Of a DNA stretch of 64,000 bases, positions 2,100-59,401 are shown piece by piece; position 1 is the stretch's first letter; every line of letters starts with the position of its first letter. Position numbers and translations under genes: made by a program. A model generated the notes under the pieces. It saw nothing but the letters and a program-made list of their open reading frames with translations, did not search any database and had not been told where the DNA came from. This DNA comes from Nonlabens antarcticus (GTDB taxonomy: Bacteria; Bacteroidota; Bacteroidia; Flavobacteriales; Flavobacteriaceae), in contig NZ_JADFCO010000066.1 of the NCBI RefSeq assembly GCF_015356755.1, positions 186,001 to 250,000 of the forward strand, given 5' to 3'.

Positions 2100-2113
2100 G
2101 CTTTCGCGAAAGC
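2100..2113. repeat. 14-bp palindrome GCTTTCGCGAAAGC (representative of 14 exact copies)
   Basis: First exact copy of a self-complementary 14-mer. Other exact copies start at 6851, 17845, 25805, 29365, 33918, 34539, 39422, 44968, 48865, 54084, 54198, 57669 and 58864. Copies with one mismatch start at 6121, 10921 and 23597; copies with two mismatches start at 41038 and 45919. A more altered version lies near 4529. The flanking base is often C on the left and G on the right, extending the palindrome to 16 bp. Six copies inside genes encode AFAKA; others encode LSRK or FRES. Function is unknown. Confidence 0.95.
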
Positions 2114-2181
2114 GGAATTATAGAAAGATTATCTACCTCACCTCTAAACAACGAAAATACGAACTTCAAGCCTCAACTTAA

Positions 2182-2964
2182 ATGAGAACAATGAATAATA
2201 GAAAAGATCAACTGGAAGCGCTGGATCGACTGCTAACGATCATGGATACTCTGCGAGAAGAATGTCCATGGGACCGCAAGCAAACATTGCAATCCTTGCG
2301 TCATTTAACGATTGAGGAAACCTATGAACTGGGCGATGCGATCCTAGATAGTGATATGGATGAAATTCCAAAAGAACTGGGAGACTTGCTGCTCCACATC
2401 ATTTTCTACTCAAAAATAGGTTCAGAGACGGGTTCTTTTGATATTGCCAGCGTGGCTCATGGAATTTGCGATAAATTAGTTTCGCGTCATCCACATATAT
2501 ATGGAGATGTTGAGGTAAAAGATGCCGAGGAAGTCAAACAAAACTGGGAAGCGCTCAAGTTGAAAGAGGGAAGAAAAAGTGTATTGGAAGGTGTCCCTAA
2601 CAGTTTACCAGCGCTGGTAAAAAGTTCCAGAATACAGGAAAAAGTAGCCGGAGTAGGATTTGACTGGGAACGTCCGGAACAGGTTTTAGAAAAGCTAAAT
2701 GAAGAACTTGTAGAACTCAAGGTTGAGGTGGATAAAGGCGATCAAGACGCGGTAGAAGCAGAGTTTGGCGATGTGCTTTTCTCGCTCGTGAATTATGGTA
2801 AACATCTAGGCGTTAATGCAGAAGACGCTCTAGAACGAACCAATAAAAAATTTATCAAACGTTTTCAATACCTAGAATCTAAAGCTAAAGAATTAGGAAA
2901 GCCATTAAGCGACATGACTCTGGCGGAAATGGATGTGTATTGGAATGAGGCTAAGAAACTGTAG
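2182..2964 (+). CDS. mazG: Nucleoside triphosphate pyrophosphohydrolase MazG
   Basis: The 260-residue length is close to the familiar bacterial MazG (about 263 residues), a tandem all-alpha NTP pyrophosphatase that hydrolyses (d)NTPs to NMP and pyrophosphate. It helps clear damaged nucleotides and can influence (p)ppGpp stress signalling. The first metal-binding helix pair is EETYE (45-49) with ELGD (65-68). The second repeat carries EELVELK and EFGDVL in the C-terminal half. The N-terminal ECPWDRKQT matches the MazG signature. A second ATG at 2191 is an equally good start. The gene stands alone on the plus strand, with a palindromic copy 70 bases upstream and a shared terminator downstream. 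Confidence 0.95.
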   Translation: MRTMNNRKDQLEALDRLLTIMDTLREECPWDRKQTLQSLRHLTIEETYELGDAILDSDMDEIPKELGDLLLHIIFYSKIGSETGSFDIASVAHGICDKLVSRHPHIYGDVEVKDAEEVKQNWEALKLKEGRKSVLEGVPNSLPALVKSSRIQEKVAGVGFDWERPEQVLEKLNEELVELKVEVDKGDQDAVEAEFGDVLFSLVNYGKHLGVNAEDALERTNKKFIKRFQYLESKAKELGKPLSDMTLAEMDVYWNEAKKL

Positions 2965-3036
2965 TGGGATATGCGCGCGACGCTCGTGCCAATTTGAAAA
3001 GTTCAAAACATGAGAGAACGAAAATATACTTAAATT

Positions 3037-3063
3037 AAAACGGCGCCCATCGGGCGCCGTTTT
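3037..3063. terminator. Bidirectional intrinsic terminator
   Basis: A GC-rich hairpin, CGGCGCCC-at-CGGGCGCCG, is flanked by AAAA on the left and TTTT on the right, so it works on both strands. It lies between mazG (plus) and the Pmp3-like gene (minus), whose 3' ends face each other. Confidence 0.9.
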
Positions 3064-3091
3064 CTTTCTTTTTCATTGCAATTTTAGATGC

Positions 3092-3247: not shown

Positions 3248-3334
3248 GTTAGTTAGTTTTAATTTGGCACTAAACTAGAAGCAACCGCCGCCGCATCCCG
3301 TTAATCTAAACCTAATTAGGTAGGAATTAACTTA

Positions 3335-4669
3335 TTAAATTCCAGTAAATGTTGCTGGAGTTATCACTCTCATTTCTTCCTTGATTGACTCATTAATATC
3401 AAGTTGTTCAATAAATGTCGCCATACTTTGAGCCGTGATTTTATCGTTAGTCCGCGTGAGTTCTTTGAGCGCTTCATAAGGATTAGGATATTTCTCCCTT
3501 CTTAAAATGGTCTGAATCGCTTCTGCAACTACCGCCCAATTTGCTTCTAGATCTGCAGCAATTTTTTGTTCATTTAATAAGAGTTTGCTCAACCCCTTAG
3601 CGGTTGATTTGAAAGCGATCAAGGTATGTGCCAGAGGAACTCCCACATTTCTAAGAACTGTAGAATCGGTTAAATCTCGTTGTAATCTAGATATGGGTAA
3701 TTTTGCGGCTAGATGTTCAAATAAGGCGTTTGCGATACCTAAATTTCCTTCACTGTTTTCAAAATCAATCGGGTTCACTTTGTGAGGCATGGCACTGGAG
3801 CCTATTTCTCCTGCTTTGATCTTTTGCTTAAAATAATCCATGGAGATGTACGTCCAGATATCTCGATCCAGATCAACGAGAATGGTATTGATCCTCTTAA
3901 ACGCGTCAAACAAGGACGCCATATAATCGTAATGTTCAATTTGAGTAGTTGGGAAGCTGTGCTTTAAACCCAATCTGTTTTCTACAAACTCATTCCCAAA
4001 TGCTTTCCAATCGATTGCTGGAAAGGCTACATGATGAGCATTGTAATTTCCTGTTGCACCACCAAATTTTGCTGCATGTGGAATGGTTTTCAATCCTTTC
4101 AACTGCTCTTGAAGACGTACCACAAACACCTTGAATTCTTTCCCTAAACGTGTAGGTGAGGCTGGCTGGCCGTGCGTTCTTGCTAGCATTGGGATATCAG
4201 CCCAGTTTGTGGCAAGTTGATCCAGCTGCTGGATCAGCGCTTCAATTTCTGGATAATAAACTTCTTCCACAGCTTCCTTAATGCTTAATGGAATTGCCGT
4301 ATTGTTGATATCTTGAGAAGTCAACCCGAAATGGATGAACTCTTTGTGACCCGCTAGGTCAAGGTCGTCAAACTTGCTTTTGAGAAAATATTCTACCGCC
4401 TTTACATCGTGATTGGTGGTTTTCTCAATCTCTTTAATGGCTTGCGCATCGTCAAGTGAGAAATCTTTGTAAAGAGTCCTCAAGGAAGTTTGAATTTTGT
4501 CGCTAAAAGGTTGCAGCTGGGAAATTCCGCTTTCGCTTAAAGCGATAAAGTATTCCACCTCAATCAACACACGATATTTGATCAGTGAGGCTTCAGAAAA
4601 AAAGGAGGCAAGGGATTCAACCTTAGATCGATAGCGGCCATCAATAGGCGATATTGCTTGTAAAGACAT
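3335..4669 (-). CDS. purB: Adenylosuccinate lyase
   Basis: PurB splits SAICAR to AICAR plus fumarate and adenylosuccinate to AMP plus fumarate, two steps of purine synthesis in the cytosol. The 444-residue sequence has the fumarase/aspartase superfamily signature SSAMPHKVNPIDFENSEGN at 291-309, with the catalytic serine loop. It also has TSQD at 117-120 and the THGQPA segment at 165-170 with the conserved His. A TAnnTTTG promoter box lies 20 bases upstream of the ATG. It lies 75 bases behind the helical-protein gene on the same strand. A degenerate copy of the window's palindrome sits inside the gene near 4529. Family and function are secure. Confidence 0.97.
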   Translation of the reverse strand: MSLQAISPIDGRYRSKVESLASFFSEASLIKYRVLIEVEYFIALSESGISQLQPFSDKIQTSLRTLYKDFSLDDAQAIKEIEKTTNHDVKAVEYFLKSKFDDLDLAGHKEFIHFGLTSQDINNTAIPLSIKEAVEEVYYPEIEALIQQLDQLATNWADIPMLARTHGQPASPTRLGKEFKVFVVRLQEQLKGLKTIPHAAKFGGATGNYNAHHVAFPAIDWKAFGNEFVENRLGLKHSFPTTQIEHYDYMASLFDAFKRINTILVDLDRDIWTYISMDYFKQKIKAGEIGSSAMPHKVNPIDFENSEGNLGIANALFEHLAAKLPISRLQRDLTDSTVLRNVGVPLAHTLIAFKSTAKGLSKLLLNEQKIAADLEANWAVVAEAIQTILRREKYPNPYEALKELTRTNDKITAQSMATFIEQLDINESIKEEMRVITPATFTGI

Positions 4670-4688
4670 AGTATAGCTTTAAAGCACG

Positions 4689-4696
4689 CAAAAATA
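4689..4696 (-). promoter_or_regulatory. -7 box TATTTTTG of purB
   Basis: It matches the Bacteroidetes -7 consensus TAnnTTTG exactly, 20 bases before the purB ATG on the minus strand. A convincing -33 TTTG at normal spacing is not visible. Confidence 0.55.
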
Positions 4697-4744
4697 GGAT
4701 TTTAGGGGTTAGCAATGACGGTTGTGTCAAGCAAATCTAGAGTG

Positions 4745-5308: not shown

Positions 5309-5311
5309 AAA

Positions 5312-6007
5312 TTATTTAGAGTTATGCAAATTAGCATGAATCATGTCGCATGCCTTTTGCACCCCAGTACCAGCATTTTCTGCGATTACAGTTAATCCGT
5401 TGCTACTTTCTAAACTAGGTTGAGGATCTACTAAATAGATGGGACATTCCTCTGGCGCATAATGCATCAAACCAGCCGCTGGATAGACTTGTAAAGAAGT
5501 ACCTACTATAATCACGGCGTCTGCGGTTTGAATGGTTTCCATAGCCGCATCCATCGCAGGAACATCCTCGCCGAACCATACGATATGCGGTCGCATCTGT
5601 GAACCTGTGACAGATTTATGATCAATAGTCATGTCATCGATCCATTCCACAATATCCGATACATTATCAGACGGTCGGGCTTTGAGCAGCTCACCGTGCA
5701 AGTGCAATACGTTTGTGGAACCCGCGCGTTCATGGAGATCGTCCACGTTTTGAGTAATGACCTGAACTTCATAATTGCGCTCCAGTGCTGCAATGCAATG
5801 GTGCGCTTTGTTAGGGACGACTTCCTTCAATTGTGCGCGACGTTTGTTATAAAAATCCAACACTAATTTTGGATTAGTCTCCCAGCCTTCTGGTGAGGCA
5901 ACTTCCATCACATCGTGACCTTCCCACAATCCACCTGCATCTCTAAAGGTTGAGATCCCACTTTCTGCACTGACTCCAGCACCTGATAAAACGACTATTT
6001 TCTTCAT
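5312..6007 (-). CDS. cobB: NAD-dependent protein deacylase, Sir2/CobB family
   Basis: Sirtuins use NAD+ to remove acyl groups from lysines. The 231 residues include the NAD-binding GAGVSAESGISTFR (9-22), QNVDDLH with the Asn-Asp pair, and the HLHGEL segment with the catalytic His. The FYNKRR segment gives Tyr53 and Arg56, the Y-x-x-R pair that marks sirtuins acting on succinyl- or malonyl-lysine in the SIRT5/CobB class. The two Cys-x-x-Cys pairs of the usual zinc ribbon are missing, so the small domain must fold without zinc. It overlaps the methyltransferase gene upstream by four bases. A desuccinylase preference is inferred from the motif only. Confidence 0.92.
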   Translation of the reverse strand: MKKIVVLSGAGVSAESGISTFRDAGGLWEGHDVMEVASPEGWETNPKLVLDFYNKRRAQLKEVVPNKAHHCIAALERNYEVQVITQNVDDLHERAGSTNVLHLHGELLKARPSDNVSDIVEWIDDMTIDHKSVTGSQMRPHIVWFGEDVPAMDAAMETIQTADAVIIVGTSLQVYPAAGLMHYAPEECPIYLVDPQPSLESSNGLTVIAENAGTGVQKACDMIHANLHNSK

Positions 6008-7173
6008 GTACTTATTTTTTCTGCCTCGATTACCACAGCACCACGACCGTTGACGCTGGTGAAGAAGAGATATTCAAATTCACTTTCGGCTAAGTTATAT
6101 TTTGTGCGGATCTGTTTTACGCTTTCGCGAAAGTTTCTTGTCACTACGGCTCGTGCACTTTTTCCATACTCCCGCTTGATCGACTTGGGTTTATAATCCA
6201 GTACCTTTTTCACCTGGAATATACGGCCTGGAAATTCTACGAGTACATCAGATGTAAATAGATGAGCATCCTGATCAATTTTTTGAACCTGAAACTGACT
6301 GGAAATTTCTGCAAAAGCCTGAGTCTTCATAATCGCCGCATTGGGTTCATATAGATAGGTTCCAACTTCTATAGCTAGGTCAAAAATATTCTTGTCTTTA
6401 CTGTAAGTGAAGATGGGTTGGTTTGTTTCTAGATTTACCGCTGTGATTTTTAATTCTTTTTTTTCTTTTGACAGAATCCATAGCAATTCCTTGACTTCGT
6501 TTTTAACGGCAACTACATGAATTTCGGTTACATGATTCAGTTGTTTTAGCCCAGCGGTAAGGTCCAACATGGGCGAGGTCTTGATCATGATTTTGTTTAC
6601 CTTCTCAAAAAACAAATTCATGTGTTCTATGACATTCGGCTCATAATCGACTAAGAGGATGGCCTTGTTGGTAGTTTCCGTTTTACGGCTGGGGTCGAGG
6701 TAGAGCAGGTCAAAACGTTCTTCAACAGATTCTAAAAATGCTATACCGTCATTACAGTAGCTTTTTGTAGACAGTCTTAGTGCCTGAAAATTGTGGGATG
6801 CAATGTGTTGTAGCGACGCATTTTTTTCTACGTGAGTGGTCTGGGAATACGCTTTCGCGAAAGCGATGACATCAACACCCAGTCCGCCAGTGAGATCCGC
6901 CATAGCAGCTCCTTGAGTCAAACTGGCCTTGTAGTTTGCGGTAGTTTCAGAACTTGTCTGCTCTAGGTTGACATTGGGAGGGAAAAGTATCTGAGAATTC
7001 TCAAAAAGCTCTGGAAATTTGCTTTTTGATTTTTGAAATCCTACCAGTTGCTGTGCAAGATCCTTAGCATCGATGTCAAAAGGATGCGATCTTAAGATAA
7101 AACCTGCCGCAGACTCGTGAAGATGCGCCATCAAATACTCGCGCACTTGTGGCTTCAAAACTTCAGGGTTCAT
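6004..7173 (-). CDS. Class I SAM methyltransferase, PG_1098/THUMP-like family
   Basis: The 389-residue protein has a Rossmann methyltransferase core with SAM-binding motif I ADLTGGLGVD (92-101) and a later YLDPSRK (158-164), a DPxR variant of motif IV often seen in RNA or protein methyltransferases. The C-terminal half resembles the THUMP-like domain found in this Bacteroidetes family, which would suggest an RNA substrate. A perfect copy of the palindrome (6851-6864) encodes AFAKAY just after motif I, and a 13/14 copy sits at 6121. It overlaps the sirtuin gene by four bases and follows the permease gene by three, so these genes form one operon. The substrate is unproven. Confidence 0.85.
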   Translation of the reverse strand: MNPEVLKPQVREYLMAHLHESAAGFILRSHPFDIDAKDLAQQLVGFQKSKSKFPELFENSQILFPPNVNLEQTSSETTANYKASLTQGAAMADLTGGLGVDVIAFAKAYSQTTHVEKNASLQHIASHNFQALRLSTKSYCNDGIAFLESVEERFDLLYLDPSRKTETTNKAILLVDYEPNVIEHMNLFFEKVNKIMIKTSPMLDLTAGLKQLNHVTEIHVVAVKNEVKELLWILSKEKKELKITAVNLETNQPIFTYSKDKNIFDLAIEVGTYLYEPNAAIMKTQAFAEISSQFQVQKIDQDAHLFTSDVLVEFPGRIFQVKKVLDYKPKSIKREYGKSARAVVTRNFRESVKQIRTKYNLAESEFEYLFFTSVNGRGAVVIEAEKIST

Positions 7174-7176
7174 GAT

Positions 7177-10487: not shown

Positions 10488-11518
10488 TACATGGGAATTC
10501 TTGCGGTGGCGGTAATATCCAGACCTGCAAAATCTTGATCCAGATATTTATAGTATCCAGAAATACCGATCATAGCGGCATTATCTGTCGTGTATTCAAA
10601 GGGCGGTATAAATACTGTCCAGCCTTCTTTTTCTTTAGAAAGTAATTTTTCTCGGATTCCAGAATTTGCACTGACACCACCACCTATCGCTACAGATTTT
10701 ATTCCTGTTTGTTCCACGGCCTTTTCCAGTTTTTGAAATAAAATATTGATAATGGTAAACTGGATGCTGGCGCAGATGTCTTCTAGATTTTTCTTGATAA
10801 ACTCTGGATCTTCCTTGACATTTTTTTGAATAAAATATAAAACACTGGTTTTAAAACCGCTAAAGCTGTAGTCTAGGTTGGGAGCTTTGGGAATGGGAAA
10901 TTTGAAGGTGTGGGGATTTCCCTTTCGCGAAAGCGAATCCACCATAGGTCCAGCTGGATAGTCCAATCCTAGAATTTTACCCGTTTTATCAAAAGCTTCC
11001 CCCACGGCATCATCCATCGTACTGCCTATGACTTCCATTTTATGATGGTCTGTTACCTTAACAATCTGGGTATGTCCACCGCTAATGGTTAACGCAAGAA
11101 ATGGAAACTCTGGTTTTTTCTGTCCCTGATCAATAAAATGTGCTAAGATGTGCGCTTGCATATGATGTACTTCAATCAAGGGAATTTCTAAACCTAGCGA
11201 TAAACTCTTAGCAAAACTACTTCCCACCAACAAGCTGCCCATAAGTCCCGGGCCACGAGTAAATGCTATTGCAGTAAGTTGCTTTTTGTCGATATTTGCC
11301 TGAGCTAATGCGGTATGAACTACGGGCACAATATTAGATTGATGTGCACGGGAGGCCAGTTCAGGAACAACACCGCCGTATTGCTGATGTACTTTTTGAT
11401 TTGCTGTAACGTTAGATAATACCTTATCATTTTTGAGAATGGCACAAGAGGTGTCATCACAAGAGGATTCTATAGCAAGAAGGTAAGAGATCTGCGCTGG
11501 CATAGGTTGATCGGGCAT
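10487..11518 (-). CDS. tsaD: tRNA N6-adenosine threonylcarbamoyltransferase
   Basis: TsaD transfers threonylcarbamoyl to A37 of ANN-decoding tRNAs, the last step of t6A synthesis. The open frame reaches a TTG at 11539, but that codon overlaps a promoter box (11537-11544), so the ATG at 11518 (MPDQPMPAQ) or the one at 11503 is the likely start. Motifs are AIESSCDDTS at the N-terminus, GGVVPELASRAH, the metal-binding HMQAH, and DNAAMIG near the end. A 13/14 copy of the palindrome at 10921 encodes SLSRKG. It shares its promoter region with divergent tamB. Confidence 0.96.
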   Translation of the reverse strand: MPDQPMPAQISYLLAIESSCDDTSCAILKNDKVLSNVTANQKVHQQYGGVVPELASRAHQSNIVPVVHTALAQANIDKKQLTAIAFTRGPGLMGSLLVGSSFAKSLSLGLEIPLIEVHHMQAHILAHFIDQGQKKPEFPFLALTISGGHTQIVKVTDHHKMEVIGSTMDDAVGEAFDKTGKILGLDYPAGPMVDSLSRKGNPHTFKFPIPKAPNLDYSFSGFKTSVLYFIQKNVKEDPEFIKKNLEDICASIQFTIINILFQKLEKAVEQTGIKSVAIGGGVSANSGIREKLLSKEKEGWTVFIPPFEYTTDNAAMIGISGYYKYLDQDFAGLDITATARIPM

Positions 11519-16013: not shown

Positions 16014-16015
16014 AT

Positions 16016-17797: not shown

Positions 17798-17953
17798 AGG
17801 TTTACTGCTTAACTAATTGTGAATGTGAAAGTTGAGGTAAGTTCGCTTTCGCGAAAGCGATATAATTTTCCTCCTGCTGCAAGTAATGCAAATTTAAGGT
17901 TTGGCGGGTAGAAGATTAAGTGTCTGCACGTTTTTTAATATAGATAAAAATGA

Positions 17954-23201: not shown

Positions 23202-23706
23202 GAGATGTTGTACTTGAAAATATTTTAAGACGAATGTTTAATTCTCCTTAAGATTTCTTTCGATTTATGTTATCTAAACTGATATCAAATGGGATTATCT
23301 AATATCTCGTCGATCAATTCAGTTTAAAGTTAAGGTTACTATTCTACTTATAAACAGTTTGGTTTTTGCGAGAGGAATAAACACGAGTAAGTTGGGAGTC
23401 TTCGAATTTTTATTGTCGATGTTTAATCGACGATCTTGAGAATGCTTCCAACCAAATCGGTTATAAATACGTTATTCAGATTATAAATTTCATAGCGGAG
23501 AGCTACGGCCGCGGGCAATTGGCGTGTATCGGTGCATTAACCCATGGCTTAAAAGTAAAGGTTTAATGATGACTAATAAAAACTTGAGCAGGACACACTT
23601 TCGCGAAAGCGTTGTTAAACAAAAATCCTCGCGTATATGGAAATATTTTTAGTATTCAAAATATAATCACCCAACGCTCAAAGCTTATTAACAGTATTGA
23701 TTTTGT
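23202..23706. other. Intergenic stretch with a palindrome copy
   Basis: It holds a 13/14 copy of the window's palindrome at 23597-23610 and nothing else that I can name. Confidence 0.6.
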
Positions 23707-25257: not shown

Positions 25258-27681
25258 CTATCGCAAAACCGCTCCTGCTTGTTTCTCTAGCTGTAGGCGC
25301 AATTTGTCCATGGATTTATCAATTTGTTTGTCTGTTAATGTCTTTTCAGAATCTTGTAGTACAAAACTTAATGCATAGGATTTTTTTCCTTCTGGCAATT
25401 GATCGCCTTCAAATACATCAAATAACTTTACAGATTTCAACAAACTTTTCTCGGTTTGGAACGCTATATTTTCTAATGTCTTAAACTCCGTTTGAACATC
25501 TACTAGTAATGCCAGATCGCGGTGCACCGCTGGAGATTTTGAAATCGCGCTTATAGGCTCGCGCTCTCGTTGGATGATTTTAACCACGTCACTCCAGTAA
25601 AAGTTAGCATAATAAACAGGCACATCAATGTCAAATTCTCGCGCCACTTTTTTCTTCACGATTCCTATGTCTACTAATTTGCTACCGCTGCTTAAGGCAA
25701 GTCCTTCGCTCAAGAAGTCCATTTTGGTTACTTTTTCGCTCACGGTTTTAATTCCCAGTCGGTTCAAGATGGCGATGACGGCACCTTTAAGGTAGAAAAA
25801 GTCCGCTTTCGCGAAAGCAGAATTCCACGAGCTTTCCTGCACATTACCTACCGTAAGGATGGATAAATGTTTCTGCTCTGTGTACGATCCTTTTTGAAAC
25901 TCGTGATAGGAATTTCCAAATTCAAAGAATTTTAGATCACTCTGCTTGCGATTGAGGTTGAAAGCAACTGCTTCCAGGCCACCATACAGCAAACTCTGGC
26001 GCAATACTGATAAATCATTGCTCAAAGGATTTAATATTTTTACCTCATTCTTAGGCGAGATCTGATCTGTCAACTCGTGGTATTTGCTGGAAGTAAGGCT
26101 GTTTGCCATCATTTCAGTAAACCCTTGACCTATCAATTGCTGGGCAATAATATTTTCTAGCTTATAATTGTCCAGTTTAGAACTGGTAGCAATCGTCGCA
26201 TTTAATTTTGTAGAAGTTTCAATACGGTCATAACCGTAAACGCGCAGGATTTCTTCAATCACATCCACAGGTCTGCACACGTCGTTTCTATAAGCGGGAA
26301 TACTTAATCCTAAACCAGCTTCTGTCACATTTTTGACGTTGATATCGAGGGTTCTCAAAATATCCTTAATCTCAATGCGGTCGATTTCTTGACCTATTAA
26401 AGAGTCCACCTTGGCAAAAGGAAGAAATACTTCACAATCTTCGATCTTATGTGGGTATAAATCTGTGATATCACTAGCGATCTCACCACCTGCAATTTCT
26501 TTGATTAAAATCGCTGCTCTCTTCAATGCATCCTCAGTAATATTAGGATCAATACCACGCTCAAAGCGGAAAGAAGCATCTGTATTAAAACCGTGTCGTT
26601 TTGCCGTTTTCCGAATGCTAACAGGATTGAAATAAGCACTTTCTAAAAATATAGATGTGGTATTTTTAGTAACACCACTATTCTGACCGCCATAAACACC
26701 GGCGATACATAAAGGTTTTTCAGCATCGCAGATCATCAGATCTTCTTCATGCAATTCATGAACTGCACCATCCAGTGTGGTGAATGGTGTTCCAGTTGGC
26801 ATGGTTTGCACAACAATTTTTTGTCCTGTAATTTTTGTTGCATCAAAAGCGTGAAGCGGTTGTCCCAGCTCATGCATTACATAATTTGTAATGTCCACGA
26901 CATTATTTTTAGGAGCAATTCCTATAGCCTTTAAGCGATTTTGCAACCAGGCTGGGGAAGTAGTAATCGTGATTCCCTTAATGTTAACGCCGCAATATCT
27001 GGGAGCTAGCTCTGGATTAAGAACTTCAATGTCAAACCGATCAGCACGAGAATTCACATAGAAATTGCTGAGTGATGGCGTGATGAACTCGGGAGCCTGT
27101 TCATGAACTGATATTCCAGCACGCAAATCTCTTGCAACACCCAGATGCGACATGGCGTCAGCACGGTTAGGTGTTAAGCCTATTTCAATAACGTGATCGT
27201 TCTCGATTTCAAAAACATCAGCAAGTGGCGTTCCAACTTCTAGTGCGTCATCCAGCACCATGATGCCATCGTGGGAAGCACCCAGTCCCAGCTCGTCCTC
27301 GGCACAAATCATTCCATGGCTTTCCTCACCGCGTATCTTTCCTTTTTTTATGGTCCAGGCTTCGCCTTTGTCATCATAAAGAATGGTGCCTATAGTGGCA
27401 ACCGGAACCTTTTGACCGGTAGCTACATTTTTAGCACCGCAAACAATCTGCACCGTTCCTGTTCCTATATCAACTTTGGTAAGATTTAATTTATCGGCAT
27501 TGGGATGTTTGAAACATTCTATAACTTTACCTACAACAATGCCTTTCAAACCACCTTTTACACTTTCAAAGGGAGTTACACCTTCCACTTCTAGACCTAA
27601 CGAAGTCAATAGGGCTGTGTGTTTCTCTAGATCTTCGGCAACGTTAAGAAACTGTCTAAGCCAGTTGTAGGAAATCTTCAT
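25258..27681 (-). CDS. pheT: Phenylalanine-tRNA ligase beta subunit
   Basis: PheT is the beta chain of the alpha2-beta2 PheRS that charges tRNA-Phe. The 807 residues start MKISYNWLRQFL. The domain order is the EMAP-like tRNA-binding domain (about 40-150), B3/4 editing domain (about 210-360), B5, the catalytic-like core, and a C-terminal FDX-ACB anticodon-binding domain. The open frame continues 16 codons further, but a -7 box at 27702-27709 lies inside that extension, so the ATG at 27681 is right. A perfect palindrome copy (25805) encodes AFAKAD. pheS is not in the window. Confidence 0.96.
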   Translation of the reverse strand: MKISYNWLRQFLNVAEDLEKHTALLTSLGLEVEGVTPFESVKGGLKGIVVGKVIECFKHPNADKLNLTKVDIGTGTVQIVCGAKNVATGQKVPVATIGTILYDDKGEAWTIKKGKIRGEESHGMICAEDELGLGASHDGIMVLDDALEVGTPLADVFEIENDHVIEIGLTPNRADAMSHLGVARDLRAGISVHEQAPEFITPSLSNFYVNSRADRFDIEVLNPELAPRYCGVNIKGITITTSPAWLQNRLKAIGIAPKNNVVDITNYVMHELGQPLHAFDATKITGQKIVVQTMPTGTPFTTLDGAVHELHEEDLMICDAEKPLCIAGVYGGQNSGVTKNTTSIFLESAYFNPVSIRKTAKRHGFNTDASFRFERGIDPNITEDALKRAAILIKEIAGGEIASDITDLYPHKIEDCEVFLPFAKVDSLIGQEIDRIEIKDILRTLDINVKNVTEAGLGLSIPAYRNDVCRPVDVIEEILRVYGYDRIETSTKLNATIATSSKLDNYKLENIIAQQLIGQGFTEMMANSLTSSKYHELTDQISPKNEVKILNPLSNDLSVLRQSLLYGGLEAVAFNLNRKQSDLKFFEFGNSYHEFQKGSYTEQKHLSILTVGNVQESSWNSAFAKADFFYLKGAVIAILNRLGIKTVSEKVTKMDFLSEGLALSSGSKLVDIGIVKKKVAREFDIDVPVYYANFYWSDVVKIIQREREPISAISKSPAVHRDLALLVDVQTEFKTLENIAFQTEKSLLKSVKLFDVFEGDQLPEGKKSYALSFVLQDSEKTLTDKQIDKSMDKLRLQLEKQAGAVLR

Positions 27682-29138: not shown

Positions 29139-29786
29139 CTAAGAGTTGCGCGTCTGCAAAAACATTTCTCTAAACTCATAAAGCATCATCGCCGTCGCAC
29201 CCCAGACAATCTGATTCTGTAATAAAAAGCACGGAACATCAACATTTTCCATATAACTGGTTGATAGGTTATGAGAGGTTATATTTTTAGAGTCTAAAAG
29301 TTCCACCAAGGGCACTTCAATGATAGATTTCACCTCGCTGGGTTGTGGCGTGAAGGATAATTTCGCTTTCGCGAAAGCGAGATAAGGTCGCACCATATAA
29401 TTACTGGGAGGGATATAAATAGGGGTTGCCGCGCGTATCAAATGTTGATCTTCCATAGCTATACCTACTTCCTCCCAGGTTTCCCGCAAGGCCGTGATGG
29501 AGAAATCTGCATCTTCCTTTTCTGCCTTACCACCTGGAAATGCGATCTGACCGCTGTGTTTGCCTTTTGAAAGCATGCGCTCGATCAAAACGAAATACGG
29601 CGCATCGTTTTTAGGGTACAATAACATCATCGTGGCTGCTTCTTTAGGAGTTTTTGCAGCCATCGTTGCACGCTGTAATTCTTCTAACCGATCGACCGCT
29701 GCCATTTCTAGCTGGGCTTTCTGGCCGGGCAAGGGCATTTTGGTTAATTTTGGAACAATATCTAAAAAGTCGCTGAATGAAGTCAA
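29139..29786 (-). CDS. CoA pyrophosphatase, Nudix family
   Basis: The 215-residue protein carries the Nudix box, beginning PGGKAEKEDADFS (84-96) and continuing ALRETWEEVGI (99-109), preceded by the CoA-specific segment LIERMLSKGKHSGQIAFPGG. The reaction splits CoA to 3',5'-ADP and 4'-phosphopantetheine. The start is a TTG; it keeps the N-terminal SDFLDIVPKL of the family, whereas the ATG at 29738 would remove it. A perfect palindrome (29365) encodes LAFAKAK. It overlaps the divergent cyclophilin gene by ten bases at the 5' ends, an unusual arrangement. Confidence 0.9.
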   Translation of the reverse strand: MTSFSDFLDIVPKLTKMPLPGQKAQLEMAAVDRLEELQRATMAAKTPKEAATMMLLYPKNDAPYFVLIERMLSKGKHSGQIAFPGGKAEKEDADFSITALRETWEEVGIAMEDQHLIRAATPIYIPPSNYMVRPYLAFAKAKLSFTPQPSEVKSIIEVPLVELLDSKNITSHNLSTSYMENVDVPCFLLQNQIVWGATAMMLYEFREMFLQTRNS

Positions 29787-37467: not shown

Positions 37468-39528
37468 CTAATTAATAACAAGACCCGCTCGTTTCAATAG
37501 AGCGTCAATCTTAGGTTCATTACCACGGAATCTTTTGTATAATACCATAGGGTTTTCAGTACCTCCTCTGGAAAGAACATTATTTTTAAAACTTGTAGCG
37601 GTTTCTTTATGAAATATTCCTCGTTCCTGAAACAACTCAAAAGCATCTGCATCTAATACCTCTGCCCATTTGTAGGAATAATATCCAGCACTATAACCGC
37701 CTTGAAAAATGTGTGCAAATGCAGTACTCATACAGCTATTTTCTACATCTGGATACAAATCGGTTTGATCAAATGTCTTGCGTTCATGTTCTTTCACATC
37801 TGCTATTCCTGTAGGGTCGATTCCATGCCAGTCCATATCTAACATTCCGAAAGACAACTGTCTCAAGGTTTGTAATCCTTCATGAAAATTTGATGCTTTC
37901 TTGATCTTGTCTATAAATTTTGCAGGAATAACTTCGTCTGTTTCATAATGACGGGCAAACAATTCCAAAGCTTCTTTTTCATAACACCAGTTTTCTAAAA
38001 TCTGGCTGGGCAGTTCCACAAAATCCCAAAAAACAGAAGTTCCCGACAAACTGCGGTAATTGGTATCGGCTAACATGCCGTGTAGCGCATGACCGAATTC
38101 GTGAAATAATGTAGTAACCTCGTTAAATGTTAGTAACGATGGCTTAGTAGCAGTAGGCTTGGTAAAATTACAAACGATAGAAATATGAGGTCTGCTATTG
38201 TTCCCATTTTCCACATATTGATCTTTGAAGCTGGTCATCCATGCACCGTTTCGTTTTCCTTTTCTAGGGAAAAAGTCGGCGTAAAATATAGAGTTTAAGG
38301 ATTCATCTTCATTTTTTACCTCATAAGTCATCACATCTTTATGATAGGTCTGTATGTCATTCGTTTTATGGAAAGTCAACCCATAAAGTCTTTGTGCTAC
38401 TTCAAAAGCACCGTTTATAACATTTTCAAGTTTGAAGTAGGGCTTGAGCAATTCATCATCCAGCTCAAAATACTCCTTTTTCATTTTTTCAGAAAAATAC
38501 CCGCCGTCCCATTTTTGTAATCGGTCAATGGGATCAAGGTTGTTCTTTGCTAAATATTCATCAGCGTATTCCTGTAGCTCACGGAATTCTTTCTCGGCCG
38601 CTGGTTTCGCTTTTTCCAGTAATTCTTCAGAAAAAGTGGTCACTTTTTCCGGCGTCATTGCCATGCGTTCTTCCAGCACAAAATGAGCATGCGTTTTGTA
38701 CCCCAATAAGTTAGCGCGCTCAAAACGTAACTGGGATATTTTTAAAACATTTTCCTCATTGCTCAGTTTTCCTTTATATGCTCTTGCGCCGAAGGCTCTG
38801 GACATCCTTTCCCTCAGGCTGCGATCATCAGCATAGGTCATAAAAGGGATGTAACTGGGGTAATCTAGGGTAAAAACATACCCTTGCTTATCACGACTTT
38901 TTGCTTCTTCTTGAGCCGCTTCAAGCGCTGTATCTGGAATTCCAGACAAATCTTTTTTGTCAGTAATGTGAAGCTCAAATTCTTGAGTCGCAGCGAGAAC
39001 GTTCTCGCCAAATCCTAAAGACAATTGCGAAAGCTCTGCATCAATTTCTCGCAGTCGTTCTTTCTTATCATCGGCTAGGTTTGCACCGTTGCGGGAAAAT
39101 TGTTTGTATTGCTTTTCTAAAAGTGTGGTTTGCTCTGGATCAAGAGAAAGTTCCTCCCGACTATCGTAAACCGATTTAACTCTGGCAAAAAGTTCTTTAT
39201 TTAAGGTCACATCATTACCAAATTTTGAGAGTTGCGGACTTACCACACGGGCAATACGCTGGATCTCATCATTTGTTTCTGCACTGTTTAAGTTGAAAAA
39301 TATAGAGCTAATTCTACTTAGTTTATCGCCACTTCGGTCCAATTGCTCAATAGTGTTTCCAAAGGTTGCCGGATCGTTGTTGCTCGTTATCAGATCAATG
39401 TCTGCTTGTGCTAGCGATATCGCTTTCGCGAAAGCGGGCTCAAAATGGGATGTCGTAATATCAGAAAAAGGAGCCGTTTGAAATGGCGTATCAAATTCCT
39501 GTAATAATGGATTGTTTTCTATGCTCAT
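37468..39528 (-). CDS. M3 family oligopeptidase
   Basis: The 686-residue protein is a thimet-type metallopeptidase (oligopeptidase A or dipeptidyl carboxypeptidase group). The zinc motif HEFGH is at 476-480, and the third ligand Glu lies in FVELPSQ further on. It has no signal peptide, so it should act in the cytosol on short peptides. A perfect palindrome copy (39422) encodes PAFAKAIS near the N-terminus. Which of the two activities it has cannot be settled by eye. Confidence 0.92.
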   Translation of the reverse strand: MSIENNPLLQEFDTPFQTAPFSDITTSHFEPAFAKAISLAQADIDLITSNNDPATFGNTIEQLDRSGDKLSRISSIFFNLNSAETNDEIQRIARVVSPQLSKFGNDVTLNKELFARVKSVYDSREELSLDPEQTTLLEKQYKQFSRNGANLADDKKERLREIDAELSQLSLGFGENVLAATQEFELHITDKKDLSGIPDTALEAAQEEAKSRDKQGYVFTLDYPSYIPFMTYADDRSLRERMSRAFGARAYKGKLSNEENVLKISQLRFERANLLGYKTHAHFVLEERMAMTPEKVTTFSEELLEKAKPAAEKEFRELQEYADEYLAKNNLDPIDRLQKWDGGYFSEKMKKEYFELDDELLKPYFKLENVINGAFEVAQRLYGLTFHKTNDIQTYHKDVMTYEVKNEDESLNSIFYADFFPRKGKRNGAWMTSFKDQYVENGNNSRPHISIVCNFTKPTATKPSLLTFNEVTTLFHEFGHALHGMLADTNYRSLSGTSVFWDFVELPSQILENWCYEKEALELFARHYETDEVIPAKFIDKIKKASNFHEGLQTLRQLSFGMLDMDWHGIDPTGIADVKEHERKTFDQTDLYPDVENSCMSTAFAHIFQGGYSAGYYSYKWAEVLDADAFELFQERGIFHKETATSFKNNVLSRGGTENPMVLYKRFRGNEPKIDALLKRAGLVIN

Positions 39529-41036: not shown

Positions 41037-41118
41037 CGCTTTCGCGAAAATTGAAATTATATGTTTACCTTACTTAAATCGATATTTTCGATAATAAAGA
41101 TTACCTAAACAAAAAGCC

Positions 41119-44949: not shown

Positions 44950-45061
44950 AATGGTTAATGGTTTTCCGCTTTCGCGAAAGCGAACTTTATCAACAAACCC
45001 TAACACCATTGGAAGGGTAGGATATTAACAACCTACCGCACTACAACCTACTTACTTGTCG

Positions 45062-45077: not shown

Positions 45078-46388
45078 ATGAGAACAAAATCAAGAAAGAA
45101 GAATCGCATTAACGTTATCACGCTGGGATGTTCCAAGAATGTCTATGACAGCGAGGTGCTTATGGGTCAATTGAAGGCCAGTGGCAAGGACGTGGTGCAT
45201 GAAGAAGAAGGTAATATCGTGGTCATCAATACCTGCGGTTTTATTGATAATGCCAAAGAGGAGTCTGTCAATACCATCCTTGATTTTGTAGATCGCAAGA
45301 GCCGTGGTGAGGTAGATCAGGTCTTTGTTTCCGGTTGTTTGTCTGAACGCTACAAGCCAGACTTGATGAAGGAAATCCCAGATGTGGATCAATATTTTGG
45401 TACTACAGAACTTCCTTCTTTGCTCAAAGCTCTAGGGGCTGATTATAAACATGAGCTCATAGGCGAGCGCGTTACAACGACGCCTAAGAATTATGCCTAT
45501 TTTAAGATTGCCGAAGGTTGTGATCGTCCCTGTTCCTTCTGCGCGATTCCATTGATGCGCGGTGGGCATAAGAGTACACCCATTGAAAATTTGATCATTG
45601 AAGCAGAAAAACTGGCCGCCAAAGGTGTTAAAGAACTTATACTTATTGCGCAGGACTTGACCTATTACGGTCTAGACCTCTATAAAAAACGCCGCCTTGC
45701 AGATCTATTGCGCGAATTGGCCAAAGTCGACGGCATTGAATGGATCCGTATGCACTATGCGTTTCCTACTGGTTTCCCGGTAGATGTTCTCGATGTGATG
45801 AATGAGGAACCTAAGGTTTGTAATTATCTAGATATCCCTTTACAACACATTTCCACGCCTGTTTTAAAGTCCATGCGACGCGGTACTACGTTTGAAAAGA
45901 CAAATGCTTTGTTGGACCGCTTCCGCGAAAGTGTGCCTAACATGGCTATCCGTACAACCTTAATAGTGGGTTATCCCGGAGAAACTGAGGAAGATTTTGA
46001 AATCCTTAAACAATGGGTAACAGACCAGCGTTTTGAGCGCATGGGGTGTTTTACCTATTCGCATGAAGAAAATACGCATGCTTACAAATTAGAAGATGAC
46101 GTACCCGCAGAAGTCAAGCAGGAACGCGCTAACGAAATTATGGAGATCCAATCTCAGATTTCATGGGAACTGAATCAGCAGAAAATCGGTCAACAATTTA
46201 GAGTGATGATTGACCGCAAACGCGGGAATCATTTTGTAGGAAGAACCGAATTTGATAGTCCAGATGTGGATAACGAAGTCTTAATTGATGCCAGCGCACA
46301 TTATTGTAGTGTGGGCGAATTTGTAATGGTAGAAATTACCGAAGCGGAAGATTTTGACTTGTATGCTGTTCCTGTAGCGCAGGATTAA
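45078..46388 (+). CDS. rimO: Ribosomal protein S12 methylthiotransferase RimO
   Basis: RimO adds a methylthio group to Asp89 of ribosomal protein S12. The 436 residues have the N-terminal UPF0004 domain with Cys18, Cys53 and Cys87 for one iron-sulfur cluster, the radical SAM motif CDRPCSFC (148-155) for the other, and a C-terminal TRAM domain (about 370-436). A degenerate palindrome (45919) encodes RFRES. The stop overlaps the small gene on the other strand by four bases. Confidence 0.96.
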   Translation: MRTKSRKKNRINVITLGCSKNVYDSEVLMGQLKASGKDVVHEEEGNIVVINTCGFIDNAKEESVNTILDFVDRKSRGEVDQVFVSGCLSERYKPDLMKEIPDVDQYFGTTELPSLLKALGADYKHELIGERVTTTPKNYAYFKIAEGCDRPCSFCAIPLMRGGHKSTPIENLIIEAEKLAAKGVKELILIAQDLTYYGLDLYKKRRLADLLRELAKVDGIEWIRMHYAFPTGFPVDVLDVMNEEPKVCNYLDIPLQHISTPVLKSMRRGTTFEKTNALLDRFRESVPNMAIRTTLIVGYPGETEEDFEILKQWVTDQRFERMGCFTYSHEENTHAYKLEDDVPAEVKQERANEIMEIQSQISWELNQQKIGQQFRVMIDRKRGNHFVGRTEFDSPDVDNEVLIDASAHYCSVGEFVMVEITEAEDFDLYAVPVAQD

Positions 46389-48240: not shown

Positions 48241-49020
48241 TTACAGATTGATATAAAAACATTGCTGGCCTTGCTCTTTTCTAAAAAATAACAAGCCCCA
48301 TTGATAGGTATTGAGGCTAGCCGTGACTTTGGGATGTTTAGTTAACTGTTGCCAGGCGTGGGTCATATCTTTTGACCAGTAAATATCGTCAATGATAATG
48401 ACCGTGTCATTATTACAATAGGGCAGCAGTTGCTCAAAATAGCCAATAGTTGCCGCACCGTTGTGATGGCCATCAATAAATACAAGCCCATAGGTTCCCG
48501 ATGGTTTTACCTTTAATTTGTCCATAAAGAAATCCCTGAAAGTTCCCTGAATCAGTTGGACATTCCCCACACCATTTTCTCGCAATCGTTCCTGCGCATA
48601 AGTGGCAACCTCAGGACTACCCTCAACGCTGGTCACGTGATGCGACCCCAGGGCCAGTCCGATGGTGCCCATTCCCAGAGAAGTTCCCAATTCTAAGGCA
48701 CGTTCCACTTTAAAGTAATATGCGATCCTATAAAGTAACTCTGCTTGTCTGGCAGAGCTGGAATTATGTTTGAGAATTTGCGTAGTCTCCCTCAACTCGT
48801 TTTGTAAACGTTTACTGCCAGCACCGTGATCTTCAATCTGTAGTTGTTGATTGTGGTCAAGCACGCTTTCGCGAAAGCAAACTAACCTTCCATATGCAGC
48901 ATAAACAGCATTATCATGCAGGCAATCCCGATTGAATTCAAAGATAAATGGAGAGTGAATCCCATGTAAATGAATGGATTTAAGCCGGTAGTGGATGTAA
49001 TGTTTGAGTTGGTGTAGCAC
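48241..49020 (-). CDS. Class I SAM methyltransferase
   Basis: The 259-residue protein resembles O-methyltransferases of the Methyltransf_24 type: ALELGTSLGMGTIGLALGS is motif I, FIDGHHNGAATIGYF and IIDDIYWSKDM are later motifs. A perfect palindrome copy (48865) encodes FRESV near the N-terminus. The substrate is unknown. It lies 48 bases upstream of the LolD-like ATPase gene, so the two might be co-transcribed. Confidence 0.85.
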   Translation of the reverse strand: MLHQLKHYIHYRLKSIHLHGIHSPFIFEFNRDCLHDNAVYAAYGRLVCFRESVLDHNQQLQIEDHGAGSKRLQNELRETTQILKHNSSSARQAELLYRIAYYFKVERALELGTSLGMGTIGLALGSHHVTSVEGSPEVATYAQERLRENGVGNVQLIQGTFRDFFMDKLKVKPSGTYGLVFIDGHHNGAATIGYFEQLLPYCNNDTVIIIDDIYWSKDMTHAWQQLTKHPKVTASLNTYQWGLLFFRKEQGQQCFYINL

Positions 49021-53038: not shown

Positions 53039-53084
53039 GATGGGTTGGAACATGCTAAAGATTTTCAACCAGAAACCCACCTAA

Positions 53085-53941
53085 CCCATCACATCTTGTT
53101 TCCTCTGCCGGAGGAAATGCCGAAGGCAAAGGAGGCCTGCGCCCTGTTTTTATTTTTCGTTTTATTTTTTATTCGGAGGAAATGTCGAAGACAAAGGAGG
53201 CCAGCACCTGAGTAATTGATTTTGATTTTCATTTTGTTTTTATTTTTATTCAGGAGGAAAGACCGAAGAAAAAGAGAATTTGATCCAGGTTGAATTTCAA
53301 TACAAAAGAAGATCCTGAACAAACCACATCTCGACTTTCGCTCGATATGATTATGGGATTTGTAATATTTGAGAATGTCTCAAGACCCAGCAATCCCATC
53401 ACATCTTGTTTCCTCTGCCGGAGGAAATGTCGAAGACAAAGGAGGCCAGCGCATGAGTAATTGTTTTTGATTTTCATTTTGTTTTTATTCTTATTCAGGA
53501 GGAAATACCGAAGAAAAAGAGAGTTTGATCCAGGTCGAATTTCCTAACAAAGAAAACCCTGAACAAACCACATTTCGACTTTCGCTCGATATGATTATGA
53601 GATTTGTAATATTTGAGAATGTCTCAAGACCCAGCAACCCCATCACATCTTGTTTCCTCTGCCGGAGGAAATGCCGAAGGCAAAGGAGGCCTGCGTCCAG
53701 TTTTTATTTTTATTTTTCGTTTTCTTTTTATTTTTACTCAGGAGGAAATGTCGAAGGCAACGACGGATTGATCCAGAGCAGATTTCGATGCCAAAGAAAA
53801 CTTTGAACAAACCACATTTCGACTTTCGCTCGATATGATTATGGGATTTGTAATATTTGAGAATGCCTCAAGACCCAGCAACCCCATCACATCTTGTTTC
53901 CTCTGCCGGAGGAAATGTCGAAGACAAAGGAGGCCTGCGCA
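53085..53941. repeat. Tandem array of double-hairpin units
   Basis: Four full heads start near 53085, 53395, 53638 and 53882; the last three are 243-245 bases apart. Each head contains TTTCCTC-tgccg-GAGGAAA, then a second stem that is TGCC-gaa-GGCA (first and third) or TGTC-gaa-GACA (second and fourth), then AAAGGAGGCC. The spacer ends with TCGACTTTCGCTCGATATGA and GTCTCAAGACCCAGCA. The first unit is longer because a second half-head (53174-53206) is inserted. Confidence 0.85.
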
Positions 53942-54075
53942 AGAGTAAATACCAATCTTTCTGCCCAATTGAATTTCACAAGAAGAACACTATAACAAGT
54001 AACTTCCACAAAAACCAACTTGCAATCGATCAATCAGTTACTGTGAGATTTCTCATTTTTTTAAAATGAAACAAG

Positions 54076-54217
54076 TGAATTAAGCTTTCGCGAAAGCGAA
54101 CTCAATACACATAGTGAAACAACGACTTGATAACACGGACTATTCTCAATGGGTAAACTATTACAAAAAGCCTCAATATTATAGGAAAGTGAATTAAGCT
54201 TTCGCGAAAGCGAACTC
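54076..54217. repeat. Duplicated block GTGAATTAA plus palindrome
   Basis: Two copies of GTGAATTAA, the full GCTTTCGCGAAAGC palindrome and GAACTC occur at 54076 and 54190, 114 bases apart. The region between differs. Confidence 0.75.
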
Positions 54218-57664: not shown

Positions 57665-57668
57665 TAAC

Positions 57669-57682
57669 GCTTTCGCGAAAGC
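57669..57682. repeat. Palindrome copy between wzc-like and wzm-like genes
   Basis: Exact copy five bases after the kinase stop. It could pause or end transcription as a short stem, but no T run follows. Confidence 0.85.
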
Positions 57683-57719
57683 GGAACTAAAAAGATTCCT
57701 GTCTGCACGGGAAGTAACT

Positions 57720-58574
57720 ATGAGTGAGGAAGAGTGGTTGTATGAGATCAAACCGAAGGCCAAGTTTATCGACCTGAATCTGGCCGAAATCTGGCGCTAT
57801 CGGGATTTGATGGTTTTGTTCGTCAAGAGAGACGTGACAACGGTTTACAAACAGACCATTCTGGGGCCTTTATGGTTTATTATCCAGCCACTATTTACTA
57901 GTGTGATATTCACGCTTATTTTTAATGAGGTGGCGGGTATTGATAATGGAGAAATCCCCAATTTTTTATTCAATCTTACTGGGGTAACCCTATGGAATTA
58001 TTTTAGGGATTCGCTAGATAGTACGAGCAAGACCTTCACATCAAACGCCAGCCTTTTTGGCAAGGTATATTTCCCACGAGTGATCGTGCCGTTTTCAAGG
58101 ACAGTATCGGGAATGCTTACGTTTTGGATACAGTTTGTGATCTTGATTATTTTCTATGTATTCTACGCGATAAAGGGCATGGACGTGAGGCCGTCTATCT
58201 GGTTGCCCGCAATCCTGTTACTACTGGCGGGAGTCATCATGCTGGCTATGGGATTGGGAATGATATTAAGCGCCTTTACCACGAAATACCGCGATCTTAC
58301 CATTCTTATTGGTTTTGGTCTCAATTTATTGATGTACATAAGTGCGGTCATGTATAGCTTGGATGAGGCTCGGGATAAGTTGAAAGAATATTACTGGGCG
58401 GTAGAGTGGAATCCCATTGCCCATATCGTGGAGAGTTATCGCAGCCTGTGGTTTGATACACAACCCGTGTATTGGGCCGGCATTATCATTGCCCTAGCAG
58501 TAGGTTCAGTTGCCTTTGTCATAGGTCTGATCATTTTTAATAAAACGGAAAAGACGTTTATAGATACGGTATAA
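57720..58574 (+). CDS. ABC transporter permease for polysaccharide export (Wzm-like)
   Basis: The 284-residue ABC-2-type permease has six membrane segments, with the family's N-terminal amphipathic start (EIWRYRDLMVLFVKRDVT) and GPLWFIIQPLFT. It forms the channel with the ATPase encoded at 59398. The stop and the next gene's ATG overlap by one base (TAATG). Use of this transporter with a Wza/Wzc pair is unusual. Confidence 0.93.
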   Translation: MSEEEWLYEIKPKAKFIDLNLAEIWRYRDLMVLFVKRDVTTVYKQTILGPLWFIIQPLFTSVIFTLIFNEVAGIDNGEIPNFLFNLTGVTLWNYFRDSLDSTSKTFTSNASLFGKVYFPRVIVPFSRTVSGMLTFWIQFVILIIFYVFYAIKGMDVRPSIWLPAILLLLAGVIMLAMGLGMILSAFTTKYRDLTILIGFGLNLLMYISAVMYSLDEARDKLKEYYWAVEWNPIAHIVESYRSLWFDTQPVYWAGIIIALAVGSVAFVIGLIIFNKTEKTFIDTV

Positions 58575-59401
58575 TGGCAAGTGATATTCGATTGTACTGG
58601 TGGAGTGAGATTTTTATCCAAAAAAAGTGTAGGGAGAACTACGGCGATTTGCTGGGTAAATATCTGGCGGAGAAGATTTCTGGTAAAAATGCAACTTGGG
58701 TAAGAGCCAGTAAGTTCTATATTAAAAACGTGTGGCAACCGGTTTACGTTACTATTGGCAGTATTTTGGAACACGTGGGTCGCCATTGCATCGTGTGGGG
58801 TAGTGGTATCAACCATAGGGATTCCCAAATTGCCAATGCTACCTTTATGGCGGTAAGGGGTCCGCTTTCGCGAAAGCGTTTACTCGACCTGGGCTACAAT
58901 TGTCCTGAGGTTTACGGCGACCCTGCCTTATTGCTGCCACGGTTTTACCAACCAAAAGGGCAGAAGCAGTTCAAACTGGGCATTATACCACACATAAGTG
59001 ATTACAAACAGGTGAGCGAGATGTACAATGGATCGCAAGGTATCAAGGTCATTGATTTTAATACCAACGATATTGAGCAAACGACGGATGAACTGTGTTC
59101 CTGTGAGCAGATTATTTCTTCCTCACTGCATGGCGTGATTGTCGCGCATGCCTATGGGATTCCAGCAGTACAGGTTCAGTTCTCGCATAGAATATATGGT
59201 GATGGTGTGAAGTACCACGATTATTTCCTATCGGTTGGATTAGCCGCCTACAATCCCTACTTTGTGGAAGAATTTTGCGACAGGGATTTTTGGGTTAATT
59301 TTATCGAAGAGCATCCCCATAAATTGCCCAACGCAACAAACGTGGAAAAACTGCAAAACGGATTAATGGATGCCTGTCCATTTAAAGCTGAAAGATCATG
59401 A
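58574..59401 (+). CDS. Polysaccharide pyruvyltransferase family protein
   Basis: The 275 residues carry the PS_pyruv_trans pattern: WWSEIFIQKKCRENYGD at the start, RGPLSRKRLLDLGY with GDPALL, then SSSLHGVIVAHAYGIPAV. Members add pyruvate ketals to sugars using phosphoenolpyruvate. A perfect palindrome copy (58864) encodes PLSRKR in the middle of the domain. It overlaps the Wzt-like gene by four bases. The true donor and acceptor are not known. Confidence 0.85.
   Translation: MASDIRLYWWSEIFIQKKCRENYGDLLGKYLAEKISGKNATWVRASKFYIKNVWQPVYVTIGSILEHVGRHCIVWGSGINHRDSQIANATFMAVRGPLSRKRLLDLGYNCPEVYGDPALLLPRFYQPKGQKQFKLGIIPHISDYKQVSEMYNGSQGIKVIDFNTNDIEQTTDELCSCEQIISSSLHGVIVAHAYGIPAVQVQFSHRIYGDGVKYHDYFLSVGLAAYNPYFVEEFCDRDFWVNFIEEHPHKLPNATNVEKLQNGLMDACPFKAERS

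Follow-up and report, generated by a model that had tools for sequence, protein, structure and literature searches.

The question raised by this 64-kb stretch of the Nonlabens antarcticus genome (the window, 64,000 nucleotides; contig NZ_JADFCO010000066.1, positions 186,001 to 250,000) is why one 14-bp palindrome, GCTTTCGCGAAAGC, should recur along it so often, both within genes and between them. A first-pass annotation had counted 14 exact copies and at least five near-copies, described the word as HIP1-like and proposed that it is under selection as DNA, for example as an uptake, methylation-protected, replication or nucleoid-binding site. The reading that we place first, as a tentative one, is that GCTTTCGCGAAAGC serves as a self-recognition tag akin to DNA uptake sequences, with dialects that differ between genera.

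A palindrome iterated across Nonlabens genomes

At a tolerance of two mismatches the window holds 21 matches: the 14 exact copies, as annotated, and seven near-copies, of which 3 have one mismatch and 4 have two. Dinucleotide shuffles of the window (n = 100) gave a mean of 0.18 such matches and a maximum of 2, and 10 of the 14 exact copies extend to the 16-mer CGCTTTCGCGAAAGCG. A total of 104 exact copies (about 0.2 per kb) occur in 550 contiguous kb of the same contig, compared with 0.0009–0.004 expected under Markov models of order 1–4. The shuffles and the Markov expectation rule out a chance origin, as the annotation had held. The annotation had named two refuting outcomes, a genome-wide count no higher than in shuffled sequence and restriction to the window, and neither was seen: the genome carries 611 copies in 3.27 Mb (approximately 1 per 5 kb), against 0 for the reversed control word.

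All 22 of the other Nonlabens genomes searched carry 288–857 copies. Density spans a roughly twofold range in Nonlabens, from 487 copies in 3.7 Mb to 728 in 2.9 Mb. Among 36 relatives from other genera, 35 lack the word and one has 6 copies. A draw of 397 Flavobacteriaceae genomes revealed genome-wide iteration in four Nonlabens (including this genome) and in one genome from each of two further genera, G234 (408 copies) and G250 (857 copies); 74 of the remaining 391 have 1–19 copies and the others have zero. Across the phylum (296 genomes drawn), 16 have any copy and none except this genome has more than 4. Among the genomes searched, genome-wide iteration is confined to three genera, and we refer to their genomes as motif-rich. 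A gcvP tree places G234 beside Nonlabens with modest support (SH-aLRT 83) and G250 nearby without a settled position, and on this sequence evidence a single origin of the word in the three genera is possible. The closest named gcvP record is from Nonlabens xylanidelens (87% identical), a record that one of the other Nonlabens genomes, G007, matches at 99.9% over 19.8 kb. Among the papers listed in searches of the open-access literature, mostly without subscription papers, we recognized none on GCTTTCGCGAAAGC in bacteria and none on an uptake sequence established in Flavobacteriaceae; two that contain fragments of the word look incidental by their titles. The part of one paper available to us reports that TTTCGCGAAA sits within words absent from human and some animal genomes, which is unrelated here (PMC8034619).

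Copies lie all round the chromosome, and a replication site of a regional kind, replication being among the annotation's options, is therefore not supported. In two complete Nonlabens chromosomes (G019 and G002), 41 of the 42 sampled 20-kb stretches carry the word. The variance of the counts per stretch is below the mean count, and inspection by eye, without a formal test, showed no trend with chromosome arm or terminus. Copies closer than 2 kb are rarer than chance would have them. Gaps shorter than 1 kb number 6 compared with 17.8 expected in this genome, 7 compared with 19.6 in G019 and 1 compared with 14.2 in G002; the same is seen outside Nonlabens, with 1 compared with 7.7 in G234 and 0 compared with 3.7 in G250. 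In the window alone, the coefficient of variation (CV) is not clearly below random (P = 0.09). Gaps longer than 10 kb have a GC content of 0.368, compared with 0.384 elsewhere (P = 0.014). With genes delimited by a simple open reading frame (ORF) caller, the density in this genome is 0.60 per kb between genes and 0.12 within them (4.8-fold); the ratio is 5–7-fold in G019 and G002 and approximately 2- to 7-fold across the window and four other genomes. Within the 550 kb, 59 of the 104 copies lie in ORFs.

Conservation, anatomy and possible dialects of the word

Copies often keep their positions between species. Where the DNA could be aligned, copies of this genome are identical in 9 of 11 cases in G019, 6 of 10 in G002 and 1 of 2 in G234. 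The gcvP regions of 16 other Nonlabens gave 69 site-by-genome comparisons, of which 40 are identical, 6 have one mismatch, 5 have two and 18 have more. Random 14-mers in the same comparisons are identical in 0.9–3.1%.

The gcvP copies separate the DNA word from the peptide that it encodes. This gene carries a copy at one column in 16 of the 21 motif-rich genomes examined, including G234, with the codons GCT TTC GCG AAA GC identical throughout; of the other five, three Nonlabens have a copy at column 227 and G250 has it at column 401, and the fifth, also a Nonlabens, lacks the word in this gene. As 20 of the 21 genomes retain at least one copy, at three alternative places, it is density at the level of the gene rather than one fixed place that appears to be maintained. 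The commonest pentapeptide at the site in 82 motif-poor gcvP sequences is IFAEA (13 sequences; 20 for I/V/L-FAEA in total, and a few with xFAKA), and gain of the copy therefore probably altered the protein in part (first place to A, E to K). Two Nonlabens gcvP genes encode AFAKA without the DNA word. The conserved item in gcvP is the DNA word rather than the peptide. The shared synonymous codons in 16 genomes and the positions retained across species strongly support selection on the word as DNA, or its upkeep by biased exchange.

The constraint reaches beyond the strict word. GCTTTCGCGAAAGC is a perfect palindrome and forms the core of a palindrome of approximately 24 bp, AKTYC-GCTTTCGCGAAAGC-GRAMT, in which the half-site A-K-T-Y-C that precedes the core is clearest in non-coding copies and the first flank base is C in 90–96%. 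When copies from three Nonlabens species were pooled (138 coding and 104 non-coding, some orthologous to one another), covariation between the two halves was clear only at the second flank base (P = 0.008 for coding and 0.0015 for non-coding copies). Pairing between halves was marginal at the sixth base in coding copies (P = 0.047) and at the seventh base in G234 (P = 0.036). The predominant independence of the halves argues for a double-stranded palindrome rather than a hairpin. Farther out there are base preferences in places, such as T at −10 in 76% of G002 copies; as the pooled flanks beyond about 24 bp show base preferences only, membership of a longer repeat is disfavoured.

Near-perfect copies predominate. 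The ratio of exact to one-mismatch to two-mismatch copies is 104:21:14 in the 550 kb of this genome, 100:12:6 in G019, 86:9:1 in G002 and 20:2:4 in G250; in G234, in which it is 64:19:30, the site looks looser or decaying. Over 824 kb we observed 183:31:22, compared with averages of 0, 0.1 and 1.3 for shuffled palindromes of the same composition. We considered whether the tolerant third T marks the free base of a GNAA mini-hairpin. Folded position 4 accounts for 20 of 45 one-mismatch copies pooled from five genomes, but in this genome's 550 kb it accounts for 6 of 21, and there the outer base leads (9 of 21).

The word is rare in recently gained DNA, in a small sample of one island and two related phages. 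A 53-kb stretch of contig C58, a defence and transfer island, contains no exact copy; the eight proteins scanned there include a type IV secretion system coupling protein, a ThiF protein, an OLD-like protein and BREX proteins, a gene content that indicates acquired DNA. The two Nonlabens phages (35 kb each) have zero copies even at two mismatches. Within the island, loci L318–L319 (G000, this genome, C58:45601–85600) encode PglZ, BrxC and an Eco57I-type methylase in a BREX-like set, as well as the OLD-like protein, the coupling protein and an ADP-ribosyltransferase/glycohydrolase-like protein.

Other words are iterated in other genera of the family. In 19 of 257 family genomes, from 16 genera, a second word, TTCCGAAGAA, reaches high counts, defined as at least 90 copies and five times the control, a threshold chosen after seeing the data. 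It is scarce in the five motif-rich genomes of that draw (30 copies pooled compared with 88 for the control; 7 compared with 6 in this genome). In 22.8 kb of Arcticiflavibacter, TTCCGAAG with AT-rich flanks occurs 16 times, compared with 0.64 expected. Iterated words that differ by genus look like dialects, and they recall both the uptake-sequence dialects of Neisseriaceae (PMC3630211) and the alternate HIPs of cyanobacteria (PMC4390886). The non-palindromic TTCCGAAG(AA) with AT-rich flanks was seen in Arcticiflavibacter, Aequorivita and genus g95 (16 sites in L019, for example near 3621, and also L022, L024 and L332–L335), and genus g95 has many copies of ATTTCAGAA as well. Chryseobacterium loci, pooled (L079, L083, L084, L086 and L089), contain the 10-mer ACTCTAAAAC 35 times, compared with 0.17 expected, and this may be a tandem array.

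Candidate functions

A tag of the uptake type would explain in one go how dense the word is, where it lies, why it is conserved, why it is missing from new DNA and why it has dialects. The receptor of a pilus-independent natural transformation machinery would favour fragments carrying the palindrome of approximately 24 bp, and the favoured fragments would recombine into the chromosome and spread the copies. Incoming intact copies would repair decayed ones, and copies would settle at sites tolerated by genes, with a spacing close to the length of a recombination fragment. We infer both that a receptor reads the site and that biased uptake maintains it. A broader claim, which we advance with more reserve, is that Flavobacteriaceae may have sequence-specific, type IV pilus-independent uptake with genus dialects, the palindrome being one dialect, in Nonlabens and two related genera, and tags of the TTCCGAAG type another, carried by at least 19 of the genomes sampled.

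The uptake tags described in the excerpts available to us, here and for the other papers cited, are those of Neisseriaceae and Pasteurellaceae (PMC7811141, PMC1939737). Like GCTTTCGCGAAAGC, the DNA uptake sequences of the former and the uptake signal sequences of the latter occur in many copies, lie at permissive sites and between genes, are conserved across species and are rare in new DNA, and the neisserial ones are also enriched in the core genome and spaced at fragment size (PMC2397512). A relatively even spread is one outcome expected of biased uptake (PMC7811141), and the neisserial sequences, too, have dialects between genera (PMC3630211). GCTTTCGCGAAAGC differs from both in being palindromic and longer (14–16 bp in its strict form and about 24 bp overall), the known tags being non-palindromic (PMC1939737). 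It is also sparser, and its host has no type IV pilus ATPase above the cut-off.

Candidate genes for uptake are present. ComEC was found in 25 of 25 motif-rich genomes. Transformation of Riemerella anatipestifer involves ComEC, DprA, ComF and RecA together with four proteins unlike known machinery: one with DUF5689, the outer-membrane CarboxypepD_reg protein encoded beside it, one with HHH and one with DUF1343 (PMC8459023). A preference for own DNA is reported for R. columbina, although a tag is not established there and k-mers were counted only to 10 bp (PMC7965970). We found DUF5689 in 9 of 9 motif-rich genomes, and a DUF5689/CarboxypepD_reg pair, like the one that Riemerella needs for transformation (PMC8459023), is adjacent in this genome, G234 and G250, one genome per motif-rich genus. 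A divergent ORF of 368–393 amino acids adjoins the DUF5689/barrel pair in all three (L372 9506–10621, L374 2643–3749 and L373 2424–3605) and possibly belongs to an uptake locus; the L372 member, which was scanned, is an endonuclease/exonuclease/phosphatase-family protein.

Several results weigh against an uptake role. Neisseria species and Haemophilus influenzae take up DNA through type IV pili (PMC7965970), and PF00437, the type IV pilus ATPase, had no match over the cut-off in any of the nine motif-rich genomes tested, all of which have weak matches below it; the known pilus-based receptors therefore cannot apply. DUF5689 is equally wide in motif-poor genera (18 of 20 genomes), and its tree does not follow the motif. 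Evenness is lost when contig C58 is included (CV of 1.25 compared with 1.08 under the null), because the 53-kb stretch there holds no exact copies, and in G234 the CV is only weakly below random (P = 0.09). In one account, known uptake sequences lack palindromic form and are spread less evenly than would be expected of compaction sites (PMC1939737); by these marks a palindromic, evenly spaced word fits a compaction site better. Under the gradual molecular drive proposed in the same paper, one-mismatch forms should be numerous, and here exact copies exceed them 104 to 21. Palindromy, evenness and the scarcity of decayed forms together fit a chromosome-compaction site at least as well.

The close rival is accordingly that a genus-level DNA-binding protein compacts, shapes or segregates the chromosome, with spacing and gene-level retention selected directly; we regard it as a serious possibility but a doubtful one. 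To the three features just named, two of them marks that known uptake sequences lack (PMC1939737), it adds that the places are conserved and that a long symmetric site with mostly independent halves would suit a dimer on double-stranded DNA. The twofold range of density within Nonlabens sits poorly with such a role, as does the iteration of a different word, at another density, in related genera, and a narrow search found no candidate protein. ParB is present in 29 of 29 genomes tested, and ParB_N matches number three in this genome, two in G019 and one in each of the other seven motif-rich genomes; a ParB paralogue as the reader was rejected, as no second copy is common to motif-rich genomes. 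The sites parS, the Noc sites and matS are palindromes of 13–16 bp read by dimeric proteins, and they are few and regional. The word resembles them in symmetry and length and differs in occurring in hundreds of copies all round the chromosome, with no shared extra ParB paralogue. Uptake and nucleoid binding are what survive of the roles that the annotation had offered, and we place uptake first.

The two readings have different consequences. If GCTTTCGCGAAAGC is an uptake tag, it would represent a third, independently evolved lineage of uptake sequences beside the two classic lineages, and its dyad symmetry would set it apart from both. A tag in Bacteroidota that lack the pilus ATPase would then provide a bait sequence for finding a new DNA receptor, and a new lineage for testing whether biased uptake alone creates iterated words. 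If it is a compaction site instead, it would be an unusually regular, genome-wide one of hundreds of copies.

A HIP1-type site kept by methyltransferase-coupled repair is unlikely. Both words are highly iterated, GC-rich palindromes, and in some cyanobacteria alternate HIPs replace HIP1, with palindromic extensions in some genomes (PMC4390886); HIP1 itself is GCGATCGC and is paired with GATC and CGATCG methyltransferases. GCTTTCGCGAAAGC is longer, its constraint of about 24 bp far exceeds a methyltransferase site, and neither of the two methyltransferase families searched tracks it. PF01555 had no match in motif-rich G005, G010 and G250, and PF00145 had none in motif-rich G000, G010, G020, G022 and G234, so that neither is universal and G010 has neither, yet carries 563 copies. 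TCGCGA outside the sites is near expectation (76 compared with 58 in the 550 kb). The term HIP1-like is thus apt as a description and does not hold beyond that, and the methylation option is weakened.

Chi sites, which act in recombination and repair inside the cell, are directional. A Chi-like signal would account for the high density and even spacing of GCTTTCGCGAAAGC but not for its palindromic form or for the iteration of another word in related genera, and we consider it improbable.

A transcription signal, whether terminator, promoter element or RNA hairpin, is very improbable. Many intergenic copies of this genome do lie near gene ends, the distance being shorter than 60 bp in 22 of 42 cases for a stop and in 20 of 46 for a start. 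At locus L329, six tandem ORFs of approximately 800 amino acids have one copy in each of their seven successive flanking gaps, a pattern that duplication may explain in part, as some stretches there are 66–74% alike. Copies occur, however, in tandem, divergent and convergent gaps with no single context favoured across genomes, and more than half of those counted in the 550 kb are within ORFs. A promoter element is disfavoured, as there is no excess between divergent genes pooled over genomes; a hairpin or terminator is disfavoured by the gap contexts, the ORF copies and the flanks, whose pairing stands out at the second base alone.

The least credible explanation is that the word hitch-hikes within a mobile element: this would suit the clusters of copies in metal-efflux islands of genomes with 3–8 copies, but Nonlabens copies are in housekeeping genes such as pheT and gcvP, with little in common outside the stretch of about 24 bp, and the islands resemble DNA from a motif-rich donor. 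These islands came to light in stretches examined from 10 of the 74 copy-poor genomes. Eight of the ten (3–8 copies each) share homologous stretches, with some copies outside the shared parts, and the G393 and G220 stretches have no match to them. Nine proteins from two islands comprise RND efflux, outer-membrane efflux, membrane-fusion, multicopper oxidase and heavy-metal ATPase proteins, and the copper/heavy-metal efflux islands with the word (L096–L103 and L105–L109) are homologous across the eight genomes. The simplest reading is that they are cargo received from motif-rich donors. The word may therefore mark donor DNA, its clusters flagging metal-efflux islands in other genera.

Copies in the window

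Eight of the 14 exact copies in the window lie inside listed ORFs, and six of the eight are read as AFAKA. This frame, which the annotation had reported for six named genic copies, holds for those six and is not universal. They lie in the PG_1098/THUMP-like ORF at 6004–7173 (6851–6864), in pheT (25805–25818), in the Nudix gene (29365–29378; 8 of the 18 other Nonlabens regions compared have it at this position), twice in gcvP and in the M3 peptidase gene (39422–39435; 12 of the 18 other Nonlabens regions compared have it at this position). The first gcvP copy (33918–33931) is at the same place in 15 of 19 Nonlabens gcvP genes, including this one, and in G234 from another genus; the second (34539–34552) is present in three Nonlabens that lack the first. 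The two other genic copies are read in different frames, as CFRES in a Methyltransf_24 ORF (48865–48878) and as LSRK in a polysaccharide pyruvyl transferase-like ORF (58864–58877).

Between genes, one copy separates divergent thioredoxin-like and MazG genes (2100–2113) and another separates divergent ORFs (17845–17858). Two lie directly past ORF ends, at 44968–44981 (ORF end at 44949) and 57669–57682 (ORF end at 57664). The remaining two form an intergenic doublet (54084–54097 and 54198–54211), each member within a 31-bp duplicated stretch. The three one-mismatch copies (6121–6134, 10921–10934 and 23597–23610) are all altered at the outer base. Among the two-mismatch copies, that at 41038–41051 is exact at the same place in four other Nonlabens regions (L241, L242, L243 and L248), and that at 45919–45932 has one of its mismatches at the third T. 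Tandem degenerate repeats of approximately 245 bp occupy 53075–53948, in a 1.5-kb intergenic region, and a related stretch occurs in L326.

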